Shown: one piece after another, positions 4,126 to 21,911 of the stretch
Layout of the letters: the number at the start of each line of letters is the position of its first letter
How positions within the stretch are numbered: position 1 is the stretch's first letter
Virus record (IMG/VR): IMGVR_UViG_3300024344_001463
Coordinates: 1 to 35,506 of that record
Length of the DNA stretch: 35,506 bases
Reading direction: 5' to 3' (one strand)
From: a virus
Notes under the pieces: model-generated
Databases searched by the model: none
What the model saw: only the letters and a program-made list of their open reading frames with translations
Told to the model about the DNA's origin: nothing
Made by a program: the position numbers and the translations under genes

Positions 4126-7100
4126 TGGCTGAACCAGAGCTTATTCCAGATTCCCCAGAACTGGCGGAAATAAGGGAAAGTTATCCAGAGGAGCTTAAAG
4201 GATTTACTGATCCCCAAATAGCTGAATTTGTTTGGCAAACAGATGTTGTTGAACGAGGCGTAGAGGATCAATATGATAAGGATTTATTTTTTCAAGCACT
4301 TGGAACCTACCGTAATGACATAGACTTTTTTGATAGCGTAGCCAGAGGTGCATCACGAGCTTGGTATAATCTTTCTGATGGACTTGATCAGGTTGATCGA
4401 CAAATCAGAGATGCTATGCCTGGTGGTATCTTTGATGATATCATGCTTACTGATGATCAGTATGCTGACAGATTTGTAGCCAGAGATACAGCACGACAAA
4501 GAAACTCTATGTCTCTTGAAGACCTCAATAGATTATTAGCTATCACTTCTGAAGACTCTGCCATAGGGGATTGGACATCAGAAATTTGGGACATCTCCCT
4601 TATCGGAGGTCTCTTATCTGAAAGTTTTGTTCAATATGCGCCAGCATTGGTAGGATCAGCCCTTACAACTGTAGCTACTGGAGGTCTAGCAGCCCCTATT
4701 GTTGCTGCTTTCCTTATTCAAAGCGGTGTTGTAGGAAGCAGCGCTTTTCATGAATACCTGAGAGAAGAAGAAGGTGTTCAAACCAAAGAAGATTACCTAA
4801 GAGTATTCAATGATCCTGATGCAATGAACAGAGCAGTAGTGCATGGGGCTAAGTATGGTCTGCCTGTAGCTGCCCTAGATGCTTTTAGTTTGGGTATAGC
4901 AGGTAAAATTGCACCTCTTATAGGAACTGCACAAAAAGCCACAAGAAATGCCAATCGAATAAGAACAGGCAAAGCACTTAATAATGCTGTGTCGGGGAAA
5001 CGTAAGGCTGCACGATGGGCAGGACGCTGGACACCTGAAGTTCTTGCACAAGGAGGACTTGGAGCAGGAGGGGAGTTAGCTGGAAGCTATTGGGCTACAG
5101 GAAAAGTAAATCAAGGTGAAGCTTTTCTTGAGGCAATCCTCGAACCTATGATGTTGCCTGTAGAACTGGCTGTGAAATCACCTAAAGCAACAGCTAAAGC
5201 TCTCATTCGTAAACGAGTTAAAAATATGTCTGAGACAGAAGTTCGGGCAAGCTTAAAACGTAAGGGTATAAACACTGCCACACAAACCGAAACTGAGGCT
5301 CGTCAAACTCTCGAAGAAAATATGGGGCCTATTGAAGCTGGCTCTACTGCAACAAAGGTGGCAACAGAAAATAGAAAAGAAAGCCAAGACAAAGAATATG
5401 AAACCGAAACTGTTTTGGATATGCGCGAAGAAGTTTTTAACCTGGTTCCGCTTACTGACAGAGTGCTAGAAGGACGAAGAACAAGAAGGGATGCAGGTGA
5501 CGAAGAGTGGTCTTCAGAGATAAATAAAAAGCAGATTACATTCAACGCTGCTGATCTAGCTGAAGGACAAGCAGGAACACTTCAAGATTTGGGTTACATA
5601 AAAGAAGAGGGTGCTGGAAAATACAGTCTTACTCCTGCAGGTTTATCAGCAACTATGGACACCCCCATAACTGAACGAGTAGCTCCTCCAAAACGCTCAC
5701 GCAATAAAGATGGTACTCATAGCTATGGTAATTACACCATTAAAAAAGATAAAAAGAAGTGGGTAGTTGATGATAATAGACTTAAAGACTTTACCTTTAA
5801 AAATTTAAACGAAGCCACAAGTGCTATTGACAATCTTGAAGCTCCAGTAGAGCAGACTGTCGAAACTCCTGTAGAACCCTTAACAACTGAAGAAATTGTT
5901 GAAGACGAGGCATCCAAGGTAAAGAGCTATCCAAACTATCAGGAGACTGCCAGTTCTATTATAGCTTCGATGCAAGAGGATATAGATGCAGGAGTAGCAC
6001 CAGATCAAAGACCCACAGTTGACCAAAGAATTGCTGATGCTTTGGAAGCTGCTGACGAAAATTTAGATGAGACAAGTAAACCTGTTGAAATGGAAAACAT
6101 TCTTAAAACAATTCGGGATGTTTTAACGCTCACAAAGAAAGGCAAGCCAAGGAAAAAAATTAATAAGGCGTTGATGGAGGAGATTGATGGAGGCATACGA
6201 ACTGCTGAAGGCGGTCTATCTATGCTCAACAACGAAAAGGCAGGTCCTCAGGTAGAGGGAACTCCTGCTACCAATATTGAACCTACACCTGAAGACGTTG
6301 CTGAAACTGTAACAGAAGAAGATGTTGAAAGAGAAAGCACTGTAACTGTAGGTCAAGGTTTAGCTGGTGTTGTTGTTGGAGAAGAAGCTGTTACTCTGGA
6401 TACAGAAGCAGGAATAGGTATACGTCCTCAAGTTGAACCAGCCATGTATGAGTTCCTTGACCTGAACGCTGAAAAACTTACCGTAAAGCAAGCAGAAAAA
6501 ATTCTAAGGTCACTTGGTCAATTAAAAGAAATGCGAGACCTTGAGGCTAGGGAAGGTTTTCAAAAGAATACTGCTGTTAAAGCATTAGCCAAAAGCAAAT
6601 TGTTGGAACAACAAGAATTGGCTAGACAACAGGCAACAGACGCTAACATGGTGGCTGATCAAGTTACTCAAGAAAATTATGAGGCTGGTGATAACACTCT
6701 TAGAACGCTCCCACCTCAAGATCAACGTAGACTTATTGAATGGATACAACAAAGGGTTGGTCAAAATGTTGCTGTAGCTTTTGAAACAGTTAAAACCATG
6801 ACTGACACAGTAAGAGAGTTAAAGAATTTACCTAAGAATATATCTGTTCAAGGTTATGCCAATCCGCTAGACAAGATTATTGTTCTGGCTTTGGATCGTA
6901 AATACTCACAAGAGGTTGCAGGTGAGGAAGCCTTTCATATTGCAGCTAGACTTTTGTTGACTCCTGAAGAGTGGGCAGTTCTCAACAATTATGATTGGAT
7001 AGCTATCGCTCATGAAAATGGTATAGATGTTTCTCAGTATCCTGATGACTTACAAGCGTGGGAAGCTTTAGCCAAGATTGCATCGAAGTTTATGATGGGC

Positions 7101-10100
7101 GAAAAGGTTGTTAATATCGGTTCTAATAACAACAAAATAATGAACCGTCTGGTAAGATTTTTAAATCAACTGGCTAACTACATAAGAGGAAAAGGTTGGA
7201 AGAAACTTTATCCTTCACCACAAGACATATTTATTTCTTTCGATGCAGGACAAATTGCAGACAGACCACACAATCCCTATCCTTTAGGTCCTGAGTCTAT
7301 GGAGTTTGATCTCAATGCTGAAGCTCAATTAGATACTCTGACCAAGGGCGCTACAGAAAACCTCCAGTTGCCTGGCGCTAAAGATAGAAACTTTGTCACT
7401 ACAAAGATTGCTCAAGGGTGGGCATACTTACAAGAAGCTTTTAACCATCCTACATATTATTCAGCGAAGAACTATTTGTTTAGACCTGTCTTTAAAATTA
7501 TGGAGGAGATGAGAGAGTTTCAAGATAATGTGGTTCTTGAAGGGTTAGAAGCTTTTAGAGTGTATGCGGAATCTTCAGCAGAAACTCAAGCGGAAGCTGA
7601 CCAGTTTATTACTCTCCTAGATTTTATAACAACCAGAAATAATTTTCGTCCTGATCAAGGCTTCATGAGAGAAAATGAAGATGGGTCAATAACTTTTACT
7701 ATGCCCACTACAGCACAGGTTGCAGGTGAAGACATACAAACAAAGTTGAATGTTCTTTATCCTGATGGGATTAATGGTGAAGCAGTACAGCTTTCTGTAG
7801 ATGAGGAGTTAAATGAGGATGGCGAAGTTGTAACGGCTGCTCAGTTTGTAGAGTACACTATAAGTGGAGAGAAAGATGATAGGGGTGTGTCTCCTGCTGA
7901 TGCTTTTAACTCTTATAGAAATGGCGCAGAATATCAGAAAGGTTTATTGATACAAGCTATTAATATTTTAGTTGCAGAGATGCCTAGAAATTCAACTGTT
8001 GAGGACTTGCAAGCTAGAGTTCGTCTTTTAAATTTTGAAATTGCTAACAGCTATGTGGAAGTAAATGAAAAAGGAGAGGCTGTTGAATCAGAGGAAACTA
8101 AAGCTTTAATTAAACAAAGAGATTTAGTTAATCAAGCCATTGAGTATACTACAGAGCTTAATAACAAACCGTTTTGGGTTCCCAGAATACGCCAAGGAGA
8201 ACGTGCCGTTGTTGTAAAAGCTAATGGCAAAGTTCAGCACATGGAAGTTTATGACCAAAAGAAATTTGAATCTTCTAAAGCTTTTGAGAAGATGTTAGCT
8301 GATCGAGCAACAGAAGTAAGAAAAGTATATCCTAAAGGTGATGTTGGTGTAGGTGATTTTAGTTTAGGTGAAATGATAAATGACGCAACCACAAGTCCAG
8401 GAAGCTTCTCTGTAGTTTCTGGATTAGGTCTTGTCGAAGCTTTGTTTACAACGCTTAGTGATCCTGAAGCAGACAACTCAAGAATAGAAAACATTATAAA
8501 GCTAATAAAGCAGGAGACTGAAGGTAAAAAACTTAAGGGTGTAGAAGAAGTTCGCCAACCTCAAAATATTTCTGGGCATTGGAGACCTGATCTTACTGGC
8601 TATGTGAACATGGCTACTAAAAGAAATCTACACACCATGTCTTACCAACTTGGTAAAGTCATTTATAAGCCACTAATAGATAATCAATTAGATGAGATGA
8701 CTTCCTCTGAGGCTGCTATAAAAGCATCTGATCCTGTTAAGGCTGCAGCCATTGGAAGAACCAGAAGATATACTGAAAAGTATTTGGCTTTTGTTAATAA
8801 CCCTAAGACACAAGGAGCTTTAATTAGGAACGTAGTTTTTCATACGGCTCTTGGTGGCAGGTTCTCTAGTGCTGTTCTAAATTTAATGCAGTTACCACAA
8901 GCTTTGTTGCCTTTCTTGTATTCAGTAAATTCAGATAAGTTTCTTTTAGATAGCCCTTATGCAGTAGCAAAAAATGTGGGCATCGTGTCAAAAGCTTTTA
9001 GAGATGCAAGTCGATTAGCAGTCAAAGGTGGATGGGGAAATCTTCAGACCGCTTATAGCATGGAGTTAGAGGGAGCTAAACCTAGCTATCTTACTGAAGG
9101 TGAGTGGCAATTATTAAGAACTTTGTTTGGTCGAGGTATTCTAAGCCCTGTAAACCTTGAAGATTTGACAGACAAACTTAGCTATCAAACTCTAGTTAGA
9201 GATGCAAGTAAAGCTGCCATACCCATGCAAGCTTTAGACAAGGCTGCTGATCTTTCGAGTTGGATGTTTGGTAGCACCGAATTTCTTAACAGAGCTACCA
9301 CCGCATTAGCAATGTATCGGATTGCACGAGACAATGAAGTAGTTCTAAATAAGGTTGATCAAATAAGAAAGCAAAGTCACTTCAAAGATTCAGAAGCTGT
9401 TGGCAGTATGAATTTAACTAATGATGAACAAGGGTGGGCTAATGCAGCGCATATCGCTGTAGCTGAAACTCAGTTCATGATGGGTAAGTTCAATAGACCA
9501 GGACTTTTTTATAAGGGTGGTGCTCTTGGTCCTATCTTTACGCAGTTTATGTCCTTTCCATTTCAGTATGTAGAGATGATGGCGAAAAATGTAAGACGCA
9601 TGGCAACGCCAGGAGAAAGAGCAATAGGCGCAAGGATGTTATCGCTCATGGTTTTGGCTATGGTAGGAATGGCTGGTGTATTTGGCTTGCCCTTTATGGA
9701 AAACCTCAGAAGATTTATTCTAGCTATATCTGATACAGATTTAGAAAAAGATTTAAGAAAAGCTTTAATAGATGTGCTTGGTCCTACTTATACAAATGTC
9801 ATAGCAAGTGGAAGTATCTTTGAGTATCTAGGAATAGAAGCTAAACAAAGGGCTGGTGTTGGTACTCTGGTGGACTCTGGTATATTTCAAGGTGACATAG
9901 GATTTATCTTTGGTCCTTTGGGTGGTGTAATAGAAACAGCGTGGACTAATGTGGGTGCTGGAATAGAGCAAGGCGATGTAAGTAAAATTGCTAGAGGCAT
10001 AGTTCCTTTAGGTTTTGTCAGAGATGTGTTGGGTACTCAACTTGCTTTTGAAGAAGGCTATACAACTCAAAGAGGCACACAACTGATTGCCCCTCAAGAC

Positions 10101-16098: not shown

Positions 16099-16608
16099 TT
16101 ATAATCCTAATTCTAGTTGTTTTTGTTTGTTAATTCTTTTGGTGTGTTTAAGTTTTTCCATGTCTTCAAAAGGAACTAAAGTTAATTCATCTTTTCTTGT
16201 TGGTCTATTAAAAATATGATAAGGCGCTCTGCCTTTCGGTCTTCCCAAGTCTTGTATTTTTCTTACTGCAAACTGAAGTAGTTCTTCTCGATTAACAAGA
16301 AGCCACTCTTTAAATCTTTCAAAGGCTATGTAGTCAGCCTTACCACAAACCCAACCACCATTGCCTCTTACGTTTTTAAACTCTACCCAAGCTAGATCGT
16401 CTTGATACTCACCATCGAAACGCCTAATTTTCTTTATACCTTTGACATCAAACTTTAAAGATTTTCCTTCTTTTGTCAGAGCACCAGCTAAATCCCAATG
16501 CTCAAACATATCTTGTTTTCTGTCTGCCCACTGAACATCAAAAAGATTTTCTGCAAAAGCTTCTTCAACTTGTTTTGCCTTTGCTAAGTATGTTTTAAAG
16601 TCAGTCAT
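16099..16608 (-). CDS. PD-(D/E)XK-like protein of unknown target
   Basis: The start at 16608 is chosen because AGGAGA lies just upstream and because its ATG overlaps the HesB stop as ATGA. The protein has 169 residues. A possible nuclease core is E15 in a first helix, Asp39 in EHWDLAG and Asp54-x-Lys56 in KFDVKGIKK, followed by WVEFKNVRGNGGWVCGKADYIAFE, a pattern seen in some Holliday-junction-resolvase-like PD-(D/E)XK proteins. The C-terminus is basic. It lies between HesB and MazG. The assignment rests on motif spacing and could be wrong; no second domain is visible. Confidence 0.5.
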   Translation of the reverse strand: MTDFKTYLAKAKQVEEAFAENLFDVQWADRKQDMFEHWDLAGALTKEGKSLKFDVKGIKKIRRFDGEYQDDLAWVEFKNVRGNGGWVCGKADYIAFERFKEWLLVNREELLQFAVRKIQDLGRPKGRAPYHIFNRPTRKDELTLVPFEDMEKLKHTKRINKQKQLELGL

Positions 16609-16928
16609 GCTGTCTCCTTTAATGAAAAGCTTTCCCCACAACCACAAGCAGAGGCTACATTCGGGTTATCTAAGGTTAATACAGTACCAAATAAGTCCTG
16701 TTTATACTGAAGAACCGTTCCTATCACATACATAACAGCGATAGGATCTATGTAAAGGGTTCCTTTAGACAGGGGTACTGCCTCACCTGAGGGTTCTTTA
16801 ACCACTTGCCAATCATAACTAAAGCCAGCACAGCCACCACCCTTCACAGACAACAATACACCATCAGCCTTTTCTCTTTCGATGATAGTGCAAAGATGTG
16901 CGTCTGCTTCTGGGGTGATAGTTATCAT
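16605..16928 (-). CDS. hesB: HesB/IscA-type (A-type) Fe-S carrier protein
   Basis: The 107-residue protein has the three conserved cysteines of A-type carriers: Cys33 in GGGCAGFSYDW and Cys95/Cys97 in SACGCGESF. Such proteins bind Fe-S clusters or iron and pass them to client enzymes. The ATG at 16928 forms an ATGA overlap with the RNR stop and is preferred over a TTG 9 bp upstream; the downstream gene is also joined by ATGA. Tight coupling to RNR suggests a shared task in nucleotide metabolism, although the class II RNR itself needs cobalamin rather than an Fe-S cluster. A possible alternative client is the Cas4/RecB-like exonuclease with its Cys cluster at 23136-24014. Confidence 0.85.
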   Translation of the reverse strand: MITITPEADAHLCTIIEREKADGVLLSVKGGGCAGFSYDWQVVKEPSGEAVPLSKGTLYIDPIAVMYVIGTVLQYKQDLFGTVLTLDNPNVASACGCGESFSLKETA

Positions 16929-18607
16929 ACTCCGCAAGTACCTCCATGTCCTGTTAGGCTACATACATCGTGTGTTTCTAAGGCTTCTTCAAACTCTTCC
17001 CCTAATTTTTGTTTGGCTTCTTTGTAAGGAACTGCGGTGAGAGGTTGTCCTCCTCTACATCCATCAGGATAACAAGTAAACCCTCTAAGACGATGTGCAT
17101 AACCAGCTAGAGTTTCAGTAAATTGGGGTAAGGTATCTTCGTTGTTGCTTTTGCTTCCCCATTTAGGAAGATTGATGGTTGAAGATATGCTCATGTCCAC
17201 ATAGTCTTGAATGTCTGCTTGAAATTTTATACGTCTTTCATAATCTTCAGCCAAGTCTAAGGCAGAATCTATTTCCTCTGGTTTGATACCGTATAGGTCT
17301 ATGATCTCTTGGGCTGCTGAGTCTACTACATACTGGTAGTGCCAGCGATTAGCGCCCTTGAGATAGCGCCTCTTGTAGGCTACAGCAAAGATAGGCTCTA
17401 TACCTGTGCTAGTGCCAGCCAAGATGCCTATGGAACCTGTAGGAGCTATAGCTCTGTTAGCTACTGGAGTGCTAATGCTTAGAGATTGGGAGAACTCCTT
17501 GCTAACCTTGTCTGAGACACCCTTATAGACAGTCAGAAAGGAATGAAGCGTGGGTGTTACCTCGTAGCGATCCCCTTTCTTTATGAGGAACTCATGGATA
17601 CCCATAAGACCTAGACCTAATCGCCTATTCTTTTCTCTGACTTTAGATACTTTATCGTAAGGAAGCTTTGCTCTCAGGGTTCCACACATAAGAAATTTTG
17701 TTGCTAGTTCAACGACTTGTGAGAACTCATGGATGCTGTCGATGCGCCCCATATTAATTGAACCAAGATTACATACATCACTATCGTCCTCTGAACAAAC
17801 CTCCGTACATGCGTTGCGTAAAGTTTCTTTTTCCTTGTCAAAGAAGTTAAAGGAGAAGCCAGGTTCTGCTGTGCTTAGTGCTTGCTTTACATTCTCTTTA
17901 AAGAGAGCGCCTGGATCTCCTGTATTGTAATAGTTTAGAAGCCAATCAGTGTCGTAATTTACGGAGATATTTGTCATATCTAGGGGAGCCATAAAGTTAA
18001 AGTCTTGCTCTTTAATTTCTCCTAAAGATAATCCTGTATTACCTACTGGCATCTCATACCAGTTCTTTGAATATAGAAACTTACTTATGTCAGGATGCTG
18101 CCAGTTGAGTGAAGCATAGATTGCGCTGCGTCTACTGCCTCCCTGCATAACCCTTCTTCCTATCTCGTTAAGCATCTGCATCTTAGGTAGAGGTCCTGAG
18201 GCTAGTCCTCCTGTGCCTTGTAGGGTAGCTCCCTCTGCACGATACACCGAATAGTCCACACCTATACCACCACCTGTCATCAGGCATGACTCAGCTTTCC
18301 ATGAGAGATTTGCCCAATCTTCTCTGGTATCTTCTTCTGCTTTTAAAAGGTAACAGTTGTTAAAGAATTTATTTTCTCTTCCTGCATAATAAATGTAGCG
18401 TCCACCAGGAATAAACTTAAGGTTACTTATAATGTTTACCAGTTCTTCCTTTTCGGATTTACGCATATACTCTTGGCATACATCCTCAACGAGCACACGA
18501 GAAAGATCATTCCATGTATCACAGTTTTCATGGGCGTACTTATGATTAAAAATATCCTCAGAAAATTTGCTGCGAAACTGAGGATTGCGATTAGATTTGA
18601 ATGGCAT
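16925..18607 (-). CDS. nrdJ: adenosylcobalamin-dependent (class II) ribonucleotide reductase
   Basis: The 560-residue protein makes deoxyribonucleotides for phage DNA. Readable active-site parts are Cys85 in FFNNC and Cys279 as the redox pair, the N-x-C-x-E core N265-A-C267-T-E269 with Cys267 as thiyl radical site, the GGGIGVDYS block (112-120) typical of class II enzymes, PTGSIGILAGTSTGIEP in the barrel, and a C-terminal Cys549/Cys558 pair (CSLTGHGGTC) for re-reduction. No ATP-cone is visible at the N-terminus and no small subunit gene is nearby, both consistent with class II. It is shorter than the monomeric Lactobacillus-type enzyme. Activity would need host B12. HesB follows with a 4-bp overlap; the polymerase gene ends 4 bp upstream. 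Confidence 0.9.
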   Translation of the reverse strand: MPFKSNRNPQFRSKFSEDIFNHKYAHENCDTWNDLSRVLVEDVCQEYMRKSEKEELVNIISNLKFIPGGRYIYYAGRENKFFNNCYLLKAEEDTREDWANLSWKAESCLMTGGGIGVDYSVYRAEGATLQGTGGLASGPLPKMQMLNEIGRRVMQGGSRRSAIYASLNWQHPDISKFLYSKNWYEMPVGNTGLSLGEIKEQDFNFMAPLDMTNISVNYDTDWLLNYYNTGDPGALFKENVKQALSTAEPGFSFNFFDKEKETLRNACTEVCSEDDSDVCNLGSINMGRIDSIHEFSQVVELATKFLMCGTLRAKLPYDKVSKVREKNRRLGLGLMGIHEFLIKKGDRYEVTPTLHSFLTVYKGVSDKVSKEFSQSLSISTPVANRAIAPTGSIGILAGTSTGIEPIFAVAYKRRYLKGANRWHYQYVVDSAAQEIIDLYGIKPEEIDSALDLAEDYERRIKFQADIQDYVDMSISSTINLPKWGSKSNNEDTLPQFTETLAGYAHRLRGFTCYPDGCRGGQPLTAVPYKEAKQKLGEEFEEALETHDVCSLTGHGGTCGV

Positions 18608-18611
18608 AATA

Positions 18612-20018
18612 TTATTCTTTCCATTTCTTTAAGCCGTTGGGATTTTGTTCGGAGAACTTACCCCAATTAAGCCCAAATTCAGCATCAACAGGGATAGTCA
18701 TTTTTCTTTGATGTACTTCAACAGTAACTGTCAGACATTTTAACACATGCCTAAGGATTTCGTCAAAGTTTTTTATGGGTATGCTGGCAATTATTGCATC
18801 GTGTATCATTCCTTGAAGTTTTACTTGTGGTTCAAGCTCTTGCCACACTTTCTTAAGACCTTGTGCCATGATATCTGCTACTAAAGATTGTGGACCGTAG
18901 GCTATAGCTTTTCTTAAGGTGTGATCTGACCACGTTCTCTCATAAAAAATCCTCCTTCGTCCTAGAGGTGTAGTAATTTGTTGATCTTGTTGTATTTTTC
19001 TTGCCACACTTTGATGCCAAGTGCGTATGCCAGGAAAACTTCTAAAGAATTTTCTTTGAAACTCTTGAACAAATTTGGTTTCTACTTGAGCTACTTGGGC
19101 TAAAGTCCTGGCAGAGCCATAGTAATTCGTACCATGAGTGAGCCGTTTTGCAATGTCTCTGTAAGTAAATCCTCTATAGAACTCCCTGTCCACTCCGCTA
19201 ACTGATCCTCGATCTGGAGACACACCGAAAACCATTGATGCAACTTGACTATGCACATCTGATTCCTCCACTGCTTTTATATAATTTAAATCTTCACTAA
19301 GATAGGCTACTGCCCTTGCTTCAGCACCAGCCAAGTCACAATAAACTAGGTAATGATCAGGTTCCGCTACGAAAACTTCCCTAAGAGAAGGGTCTATGTT
19401 TTGCACATTAGCGGAGTGCCTGAGGGGATGATCACTACTAGACCATCTTCCTGTGTCAGTGCCAGCTACATTATAACCAGCAGCCCAACGATTTCCTACA
19501 GCTAAAGCTTTATTTAAAGTTTGGCATTGTTTTTCTAAGTCTCTGATATTCAATATTAATTTTACGAAAGGTCTAGCTAAAGGATAATGTTTTGCAATTC
19601 TTTCTAGTGCTACCCTGTTGCAGGTAATGCTTCGTACTCCTGCTTTAGATTGAGTTTGCGTAGGGATCATAAGGGTTTCATAAAAGAACTTCTTTAACTG
19701 TATGTGTGAGTTAGGATTAAGAGAGGAACCTGATACGCCTTTAGTTAGTTCGTTGAGTATGGAACGATAGCTATCTATTCTAGTTTGAGCACCGTCTACA
19801 ATAATCTTTCGAGCAGCAGTGTCTATTTGTATTCCACGCATCATCATGGTGTGAACAGGGGGCAGCAAAGATTTTTCAAACTCGTAGATGGGGCGCACCT
19901 CCTCAAGCTTTGGCTCTAAGATACCAAAGAGTTCATGGGTAAGCATGGTATCCATTCCACAATAAGCGAGATGAAGATCATGTGCGTTTAAGTTTTCAAA
20001 ATTAGTTACTGTTTTCAT
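18612..20018 (-). CDS. polA: DNA polymerase A, polymerase half (split gene)
   Basis: The 468-residue protein holds the polymerase domain. Residues 12-31 match the end of a 3'-5' exonuclease domain, with Tyr19-x3-Asp23 as motif Exo III (compare Tyr497/Asp501 of E. coli Pol I). Then follow GTDTGRWSS and NVQNID (186-208), motif A with Asp228 (YCDLAGAEAR), motif B R287...K291...H295...Y299, and motif C His406-Asp407-Ala408. Two positions are unusual: His where Pol I has Phe762, and Ala where motif C normally has Glu. Exo I and II are missing here and lie in the gene at 20970-21911, with three genes between. The start overlaps the VOC gene stop (ATGA). This is the replicative polymerase. Confidence 0.88.
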   Translation of the reverse strand: MKTVTNFENLNAHDLHLAYCGMDTMLTHELFGILEPKLEEVRPIYEFEKSLLPPVHTMMMRGIQIDTAARKIIVDGAQTRIDSYRSILNELTKGVSGSSLNPNSHIQLKKFFYETLMIPTQTQSKAGVRSITCNRVALERIAKHYPLARPFVKLILNIRDLEKQCQTLNKALAVGNRWAAGYNVAGTDTGRWSSSDHPLRHSANVQNIDPSLREVFVAEPDHYLVYCDLAGAEARAVAYLSEDLNYIKAVEESDVHSQVASMVFGVSPDRGSVSGVDREFYRGFTYRDIAKRLTHGTNYYGSARTLAQVAQVETKFVQEFQRKFFRSFPGIRTWHQSVARKIQQDQQITTPLGRRRIFYERTWSDHTLRKAIAYGPQSLVADIMAQGLKKVWQELEPQVKLQGMIHDAIIASIPIKNFDEILRHVLKCLTVTVEVHQRKMTIPVDAEFGLNWGKFSEQNPNGLKKWKE

Positions 20019-20449
20019 AGGCTATTATTTCCATTAGGTGCAGGAAAGTTTAACTCCCACCGCACATCATTCAAAGGGTCGGTAACAAATATTTGTAGAG
20101 CTTTTTCGGGATCATGAGAACGAAACTCTGTGTGATGCCTCCACTTCAGATTTAGTTTATTGTCAAGAAGAAATAAACGCCACCTTCTATACTCTTCGAT
20201 GGTGTCTTCGCCTTCTCGTCTAGCATCAAGAGCTATGTGATCTACAGGATTTACGTCTATTAATTCTTCGGCTCTATCAGGCATACGATTTTGTAAATGC
20301 AACATGGTTTTACGAGGTTCAATCCAAAGCCATGCTCCAGCAAAAGGAAAGTCTGGTCTGTCTGTCTCAACAAAACCAAACACATCTTTGTAAAATTGTA
20401 TGGATTTTTCTAGTCTAAGGGTGTTCAGGGTTACATGCTGTAATATCAT
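20015..20449 (-). CDS. VOC (glyoxalase/extradiol dioxygenase-like) superfamily protein
   Basis: ATG 20449 is preferred over an upstream start: it overlaps the previous stop as ATGA and GAGGA lies before it. The 144-residue protein shows two beta-alpha-beta-beta-beta units: LQHVTLNTLRLEKSIQFYKDVFGF, a strand pair ending MLHLQ, VDHIALDA and QIFVTDPLNDVRWELNF. The positions of the usual metal ligands are His5, His51, His71 and Glu132, so metal binding looks intact. VOC proteins include glyoxalases, antibiotic-binding proteins and dioxygenases; the substrate cannot be told. Its location is odd: it lies between the two halves of the split DNA polymerase and is translationally coupled to the polymerase half. 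Confidence 0.75.
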   Translation of the reverse strand: MILQHVTLNTLRLEKSIQFYKDVFGFVETDRPDFPFAGAWLWIEPRKTMLHLQNRMPDRAEELIDVNPVDHIALDARREGEDTIEEYRRWRLFLLDNKLNLKWRHHTEFRSHDPEKALQIFVTDPLNDVRWELNFPAPNGNNSL

Positions 20450-20748
20450 TTCAAATCCTCTATCATGTTTTCGAGATACCATTTGGCTTTCATGAGGTCT
20501 TCGACTTGGTATTGTTTATCTTTATGTTTGATATTGTAACGTGAAACATACTTGATGACATTGCCTTGAGCGTAAGACATGTTCCAAGATTTTATGTAGT
20601 CGTTTGTTTCTATGCCTTTGTTGTAGTGGGGTGGGTGGTTTACTAAATCTTCTTTGTATTTTGGGTCTAGCACTTCTTCTCGATAGCGCTGCCAGCCTGG
20701 TGAATCATTAGGAATATTGAGAGGAGGTCTGGTATCGGAGGAGGACAT
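20446..20748 (-). CDS. DUF3310 protein (T7 gp1.7-like C-terminal domain)
   Basis: The 100-residue protein has the DUF3310 signature: VNHPPHYNKGIETNDYI, a central NVIKYVSRYNIKHK and DLMKAKWYLENMIE at the C-terminus. This domain is common in phages and forms part of T7 gp1.7, a nucleotide kinase; on its own its function is not established. AAGGA lies before the start. It overlaps the upstream gene by 41 bp and joins the VOC gene by ATGA. The position beside replication genes fits a nucleotide-related task. Confidence 0.8.
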   Translation of the reverse strand: MSSSDTRPPLNIPNDSPGWQRYREEVLDPKYKEDLVNHPPHYNKGIETNDYIKSWNMSYAQGNVIKYVSRYNIKHKDKQYQVEDLMKAKWYLENMIEDLK

Positions 20749-20977
20749 TTAATCTTTTCCTTATAAAATTGGTTACGGATACAGGTTGGTTTATTACATG
20801 TAATGCTCTTATCTGGGTAGATTTAGGGTCAAGTTCTGCGAGATCACAAACGTAATTAAAATCGGAACTGCTTACAAACCAAGAAATAGCATCTTGTTTA
20901 TCAGGGTCTTGATCCTCTTTTGTAGCGTCAAGTAAAGCCTGATATATGACAGCCCTAAATAGTTTAGTTTCACTCAT
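20708..20977 (-). CDS. small conserved phage protein, 89 aa
   Basis: The 89-residue protein contains DAISWFVSSSDFNYVCDLAELDP, a motif I recognise from small proteins near phage replication genes, and ends in a basic helix (NFIRKRLNVLLRYQ). The arrangement suggests a helical DNA-associated protein, but no function is known to me. It overlaps the exonuclease half of the polymerase by 8 bp and the DUF3310 gene by 41 bp, so it is part of the cassette lying between the polymerase halves. Confidence 0.7.
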   Translation of the reverse strand: MSETKLFRAVIYQALLDATKEDQDPDKQDAISWFVSSSDFNYVCDLAELDPKSTQIRALHVINQPVSVTNFIRKRLNVLLRYQTSSQYS

Positions 20978-21911
20978 CTTTTTTGTGTTGTTCTTTTTTT
21001 CTTTTCTTATTCATGGTTTTCCATGCTGCTTCGTCACAGTAGAGGGAGCCAAGAAATCCCAAAGACTTTTGCATCTCAGGAGATATAGAATGATGGAGTA
21101 ACATAGTATCTTCAACAGGAAGAGCCACAGGAATACCATGATCAGTGAAATAACTAATGTCATAGATACCGTTGTGAAAAACCTTTGTGCAATCTCCTGT
21201 AAGTATTTCAAACATGAACTCCCAAATCTTTAATTCATCATCAAATGACCACTGATGATATCCATCTTTAGTTAGATTCCATATAGGTAACACATAACTA
21301 TCTGAAGGGGAAGGAGAAAATGAAACACAAGTTATTTGTTTATCTTTTGTTTCAACATCAATGGCAACGATACCCTTCATTTTTGGTTTGATAGTTTCTA
21401 AATCTGCAATGCTATCTACAATATGAACTTGTCGCTCTATTTTCTTTATACCCTGCAAGAATCTTTTAGCTTTCTTTAGATCAGCCCTGACTATGGGATG
21501 TGAACTAAAGTCTTTAAGCATAGTAGGTATATCTATGGTTGGTAAGATTGTGTATTTTTTATAGGGGCAAAGTGTGCCTCTGTATTCGCTGAGTCTTTGT
21601 CCAGTAAGCAGGGTAAAAGGAACCTTACCAAAAGTTATTATGAGATCAGGTTCTATCTCATCTATCTCAGCTATAAGTTTATCTATTTGTGGGTGGTATT
21701 CTTCGCTGATGTAACCTAAATCGAAGCGAGGAAACTGATTCTTTTTATTTGAGTAGTGTTCCCCTTTGGCAGGGAAGAGGCATCTGAAATGATTTCCTGC
21801 TAACTTAAGGTCGGCTAAATCAAAGATGCGTCTGATTTGTTTGCTTGTATCTGGTGTTAAAAATTTGGGTGGTTCTGCCAGAAGTTCTGGCTTCTCGAAA
21901 AGGAAAAGCAT
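20970..21911 (-). CDS. DNA polymerase A, UDG-like plus 3'-5' exonuclease half (split gene)
   Basis: The 313-residue protein has two regions. Residues 1-150 resemble the uracil-DNA-glycosylase-like fold found N-terminal in some phage polymerases (SPO1 type): EPDLIITFGKVPFTLLTGQ, RGTLCPY and LPTIDIPTMLKDF; the catalytic His-Pro of active UDGs is absent. Residues 155-313 are the DnaQ/Pol I 3'-5' exonuclease: Exo I Asp185-x-Glu187 (AIDVETKD), Exo II Asn247...Asp251 (HNGIYDISYF), then EDTMLLHHSI and LGFLGSLYCDEAAWK. The protein ends in a basic tail (KKRKKEQHKKDE) before motif Exo III, which is at the start of the separate polymerase protein. There is no Shine-Dalgarno, and an in-frame stop lies just upstream of ATG 21911; the start codon lies inside a stem. 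Confidence 0.8.
   Translation of the reverse strand: MLFLFEKPELLAEPPKFLTPDTSKQIRRIFDLADLKLAGNHFRCLFPAKGEHYSNKKNQFPRFDLGYISEEYHPQIDKLIAEIDEIEPDLIITFGKVPFTLLTGQRLSEYRGTLCPYKKYTILPTIDIPTMLKDFSSHPIVRADLKKAKRFLQGIKKIERQVHIVDSIADLETIKPKMKGIVAIDVETKDKQITCVSFSPSPSDSYVLPIWNLTKDGYHQWSFDDELKIWEFMFEILTGDCTKVFHNGIYDISYFTDHGIPVALPVEDTMLLHHSISPEMQKSLGFLGSLYCDEAAWKTMNKKRKKEQHKKDE

Follow-up and report, generated by a model that had tools for sequence, protein, structure and literature searches.

The family A DNA polymerase (PolA) of the virus studied here is very probably a two-chain enzyme (rough probability 0.86), in which one ancient fission between the Exo II and Exo III motifs would have produced two proteins that associate as a heterodimer, with the metal site for proofreading lying across the two chains. 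The window, that is the whole stretch of DNA that was analysed (35,506 nucleotides, IMG/VR virus record IMGVR_UViG_3300024344_001463), carries both parts of the polymerase on its minus strand, separated by three genes. The relevant features are the following.

20970..21911, minus strand: exo half of the split PolA (chain 1, 313 aa), combining a UDG-like domain with the initial portion of the DEDD exonuclease domain (Exo I, Exo II).
21444..21911, minus strand: UDG-like N-terminal domain, residues 1-156, family 4 UDG fold (Pfam, fold match, profile).
21351..21359, minus strand: Exo I, D185-V-E187, equivalent to Klenow D355 and E357 (joint alignment).
21159..21173, minus strand: Exo II, N247-xxx-D251, with D251 equivalent to Klenow D424 (joint alignment).
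20708..20977, minus strand: 89-aa gene with weak similarity to DUF6280; 17 split loci have a gene of this cluster.
20446..20748, minus strand: 100-aa DUF3310 gene; same cluster found in 9 split loci.
20015..20482, minus strand: 155-aa VOC/glyoxalase-like gene; no counterpart found between the halves of relatives.
18612..20018, minus strand: polymerase half (chain 2, 468 aa), made of an N-terminal Exo III segment followed by a complete family A polymerase domain.
19950..19964, minus strand: Exo III, Y19-xxx-D23, equivalent to Klenow Y497 and D501 (joint alignment).
19335..19337, minus strand: polymerase motif A aspartate D228, equivalent to Klenow D705 (joint alignment).
18798..18800, minus strand: polymerase motif C aspartate D407, equivalent to Klenow D882 (joint alignment).

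An earlier, sequence-only reading of this DNA had placed Exo I (Asp185, Glu187) and Exo II (Asp251) in the 313-aa protein and had Exo III (Tyr19, Asp23) open the 468-aa polymerase protein. Every one of these residues is exact, and no second Exo III is found in the first protein. The DEDDy exonuclease residues are complete but divided over two chains, unlike those of the usual single-chain proofreading members of family A.

Chain 1 is matched by the Pfam family DNA_pol_A_exo1 at residues 163-305. When it is folded alone, the model has a mean pLDDT of 85 and its exonuclease part adopts the fold of PolA-type exonucleases (Z 11.8 to the apicoplast polymerase). The UDG-like domain gives a weak Pfam hit (E 0.046) and a clear profile match (E 1.9e-25), and in fold comparison it is closest to family 4 UDGs (Z 14.6, rmsd 2.9 over 142 residues, single-chain model). 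In this domain (21444-21911), the window has IDIP where the cultivated Caulobacter phage Kuura has WHPS; the lack of recognisable UDG motifs in the clade of the window suggests a non-catalytic role. Chain 2 matches DNA_pol_A at residues 92-453 (E 3.3e-44), and its single-chain model covers Klenow 468-928 (Z 33.0, rmsd 4.4, 416 residues). It belongs to family A (phrog_17, UDG-exo-pol type), with polymerase motifs A, B and C and both catalytic aspartates present; in 67 of 67 split sequences, the counterparts of D228 and D407 line up with Klenow D705 and D882. Thus, the whole polymerase domain is held by the 468-aa chain and the break lies outside it.

The joint alignment with E. coli Pol I places the break after about Klenow residue 475. 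The phage DNA polymerase profile PHROG 17 is matched at 549-798 by the exo half and at 807-1232 by the polymerase half and, because these stretches adjoin, the halves represent successive parts of one family with hardly anything lost between them. The sequence-only reading had compared a summed Exo II-Exo III spacing of about 80 residues with about 73 in E. coli and concluded that nothing seemed lost. The comparison itself is borne out (81 in the window, 85 as the median of split loci, 73 in E. coli). However, the nearest fused relatives have only 61-67 residues and, since the summed spacing exceeds this, the split loci hold about 15-20 residues extra rather than a loss. That these are purely new docking segments is made less likely by the resemblance of the Klenow loop HKTITFEE to split tails such as TIKRDE, and part of the extra stretch may be ancestral. 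The exo half of the window ends in a conserved tail with KKDE at its C-terminus, and in most loci the tail ends KRDE, KKDE, KADE or KREE. The new N-terminus of the polymerase chain is also conserved, usually with 18-25 residues ahead of the Exo III tyrosine.

The split is not a peculiarity of one contig. Profile searches covering IMG/VR and phage records recovered 148 split, 8 fused and 14 undecidable loci in the redundant set, reduced to 72 split and 8 fused loci at 97% polymerase identity. All 14 loci without an exo half have their polymerase within about 830 nt of a contig end. The split loci come from many metagenomes, one isolate (Kuura) and one Sphingomonadales MAG. An assembly error joining unrelated genes is excluded, as the same break is present in dozens of independent contigs and in a cultivated phage. 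Intact polymerase genes were likewise sought in near relatives, and every one of these is split. In a maximum-likelihood tree built from 79 polymerase sequences, each taken from Exo III onwards, the 67 split forms group in a single clade apart from the 12 fused forms (support 100/98), and a single split/fused change is obtained in 200 of 200 bootstrap trees; none of the members of this tree shows re-fusion. The split is therefore a large and old phage lineage with a single origin. The tree is unrooted, and the direction of the change, fission and not fusion, is drawn from the outgroups and cellular PolA, which are fused.

The three genes that had been reported between the halves are indeed there, as ORFs of 89, 100 and 155 aa, all on the minus strand. 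The gene order on this strand is SSB-like, exo half, 89-aa gene, DUF3310, VOC/glyoxalase-like, polymerase half and ribonucleotide reductase. For the 89-aa protein, the phage collection gave no match. Each reading frame from the exo half through to the polymerase half overlaps its neighbour, by 8, 41, 37 and 4 nt in turn, an arrangement suggestive of co-transcription and translational coupling of both parts of the enzyme. Next to the ribonucleotide reductase gene, a 110-aa protein (16605-16937) with the C-terminus CGCGESF resembles the iron-sulphur carriers SufA/IscA; SufA has been reported in OM43 phage genomes.

The nearest relatives with enough sequence (79-90% identity) are all split and have both the 89-aa gene and the DUF3310 gene in the gap. 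In three loci (L001, L002 and L013) an HTH gene takes the third position, and L003 has no third called ORF. Over the 72 loci, the 143 ORFs located between the halves form 74 clusters (approximate counts from a simple ORF caller) and include DUF7768, DUF6378, DUF1937, DUF3310, cpYpsA and HTH. Their number per locus goes from none to about five. As both number and identity vary freely, the intervening genes are incidental to the split.

How the fission arose is a separate matter. A homing endonuclease may have caused it and then been lost from most lineages, an idea that concerns the origin only, is compatible with the two-chain reading and is, in our view, unlikely though deserving of mention. 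It has a precedent in T4-like phages, and an HNH-like ORF directly follows the exo gene in L033 and, weakly, in L034. However, among the ORFs tested HNH-like ORFs are found in these two related tips only and look like late arrivals; most loci have none, and no endonuclease gene lies between the halves in the window.

The exonuclease site has been kept in spite of its division. The equivalents of D355, E357, D424, Y497 and D501 are identical to Klenow in 67/67 split and 8/8 fused sequences of the joint alignment, and every testable split locus carries Exo III on its polymerase chain. As the Exo III motif was part of two of the search patterns, a control for sampling bias was made: polymerase-only patterns can find 58 split loci, and all 58 keep the Exo III tyrosine and aspartate, although 46 of them lack a match to the pattern used to search for Exo III. 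Y19 and D23 are among the 20 invariant columns of 50 polymerase halves; D185, E187, N247 and D251 are among the 17 invariant columns of 49 exo halves. pN/pS ratios, pooled among six or seven close relatives, are 0.12 for the exo domain and 0.23 for the UDG-like domain, 0.066 for the Exo III helix and 0.17 for the rest of the polymerase. Hence, both halves are under purifying selection. In the C-terminal tail of the exo half, pN/pS is 0.042 and synonymous change is high. Overlap with the start of the next gene could account for part of the tail conservation; against its being a mere by-product of this kind stand the high synonymous change and the KREE tails kept in two loci (L031 and L158) where no gene start overlaps. 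The pN/pS pattern and the conserved residues match what would be predicted for a working site common to the two chains.

These data bear on another reading, in which proofreading is dead and the exo half is retained for its UDG-like domain or as a scaffold. The attached UDG-like domain and the physical division of the site speak for it, and the exo half could keep its residues for some other role. However, the five exonuclease residues have all persisted on the two chains among proteins down to 30-40% identity, the exo domain is more constrained than the UDG-like domain, and it is the latter that has lost the WHPS motif in the window. We consider this reading highly improbable.

It is less probable still that the halves are rejoined into one polymerase by protein or RNA splicing, translational bypass, stop readthrough or frameshifting: the few loci where the halves touch would allow it, but the distance between halves runs from -8 to 2305 nt with unrelated genes in between, both new termini are conserved, all three stop codons end the exo halves (37 TGA, 22 TAA and 13 TAG), and the next in-frame stop comes at a median of 6 codons downstream. 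Five loci have no gene between the halves (gap of -8 to 2 nt). In L163, the exo half ends at 4940 and the polymerase half starts at 4941, so that a single in-frame TAG divides them and readthrough of one codon would yield a fused polymerase; in L142 and L150, the halves overlap by a few bases. No readthrough signal was found at the break. The sequence-only reading had seen no intein ends there, and this holds: the chain ends are short tails, and neither half has a Pfam intein domain. For RNA introns, no Rfam match was obtained in the window at E up to 1 or in 14 loci at gathering score, thresholds that divergent introns could escape. Within the same record, which may be a fragment, no second polymerase or exonuclease was found. 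Intein-like insertions do occur in two split relatives, L162 (about 4872-7361) and L168 (3536-5497), where they are located inside the polymerase domain and not at the break; their ends read ...VTGN, followed by S or T.

The preferred reading is thus that of a two-chain polymerase. DEDD exonucleases bind one metal through the equivalents of Klenow D355, E357 and D501, and the other through those of D355 and D424. A replicative polymerase of the UDG-exo-pol type would have been split once in the Exo II-Exo III loop, near Klenow residue 475, and both products, made from one tightly packed gene cluster, would fold together as a heterodimer. Chain 1 would give D185, E187 and D251, and chain 2 would give Y19 and D23. 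With the D501 equivalent on the other chain, the metal would be coordinated across the interface and both chains would be required for 3'-5' proofreading; chain 2 contains the entire polymerase site. Because all catalytic residues are conserved on both chains, we infer that the exonuclease site must assemble from the two; chain association, proofreading activity and co-expression are deduced here from the sequences. The exo tail and the new N-terminus of the polymerase chain, both conserved, may form part of the contact. In the model of the exo half folded alone, the last ten residues have a pLDDT under 50 (37-48 for the C-terminal tail); beside the mean of 85, this would fit the need for a partner, and low values are also usual for free termini.

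A more speculative extension, to which we give little credence, is that the polymerase chain alone would be free of proofreading and that docking of the exo chain, set by its own expression, would switch proofreading on, so that fidelity or strand displacement would be tuned through exchange of subunits. If true, it would explain the absence of re-fusion, even where a single stop codon separates the halves as in L163. A proofreading site divided between two gene products offers a natural on/off test of proofreading. The lineage also indicates that a replicative enzyme can stay stably divided through a catalytic site while unrelated genes turn over in the gap.

The closest known system is the cultivated Caulobacter phage Kuura (OQ067476). 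Its proteins Kuura_029 and Kuura_026 have the same Exo II/Exo III break and belong to the same split clade, with two other genes between the halves and 33% identity. The Kuura paper reports only a DNA polymerase and makes no mention of a split. Kuura_029 (3210-4319 in L016) is publicly annotated as hypothetical and should read proofreading half of DNA polymerase; exo halves of this kind are being overlooked in annotation.

Other divided phage polymerases are known. In LUZ24-like phages (PaP3, tf) and in phiEco32, as in the window, the PolA-type exonuclease and the polymerase are separate proteins with genes between them (PMC3517423). However, in PaP3 and phiEco32 the exonuclease domain of the exo subunit is complete and comprises Exo III (YCLQD, YCEQD), so that the active site is undivided. 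The Methylophilales phages MEP401 and MEP402 are marine phages that also have PolA in two ORFs with a small gene between (PMC10580990), but with the whole exonuclease domain in the first ORF and a break in the polymerase domain adjoining motif A. Two further loci are divided at other places. In L183 (Vibrio phage vB_VspS_VS-ABTNL-3, 3731-6865), PolA is interrupted directly ahead of motif A and a single ORF fills the gap; this break differs from that of the window and would divide the polymerase domain. In L184 (MW202554, 1727-4364), PolA is cut after the complete exonuclease domain and an 86-aa NrdR-like zinc-ribbon ORF lies between.

Reassembly of split phage enzymes has a precedent in T4-related phages, where two chains come together in active form in the split gp43 of phages 25 and 44RR (43A/43B) and in the split NrdA of Aeh1. 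Indeed, 43A and 43B of phage 25 co-purify with activity and the split Aeh1 NrdA is fully active (PMC2988022). However, gp43 is a family B polymerase, NrdA is a reductase, and unlike in the window these splits are associated with a homing endonuclease or an untranslated insert.

The viral PolA exonuclease ExnV1 (7r0t), described with PolI_G20c (PMC9629493), is sequence-related and occurs as a 314-aa protein, and direct contacts to its D355, E357 and D501 equivalents have been described. It was considered as a solved example of the exo half and rejected, as it has a complete exonuclease site including the D501 equivalent. In phiVC8 DpoZ, mobile helices E1 and E2 are located between helices E and F, the region of the break in the window, and take part in proofreading (PMC8599892). 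DpoZ is likewise a phage PolA with an exonuclease, but as a single chain and from a 2-aminoadenine phage. A link of this kind had been prompted by a nearby MazG-like gene and was dropped, since no PurZ-like gene is recognised in the ORF list of the window.

Within open-access papers, no description was found of a PolA break between Exo II and Exo III. The split phage polymerases already known are cut elsewhere.
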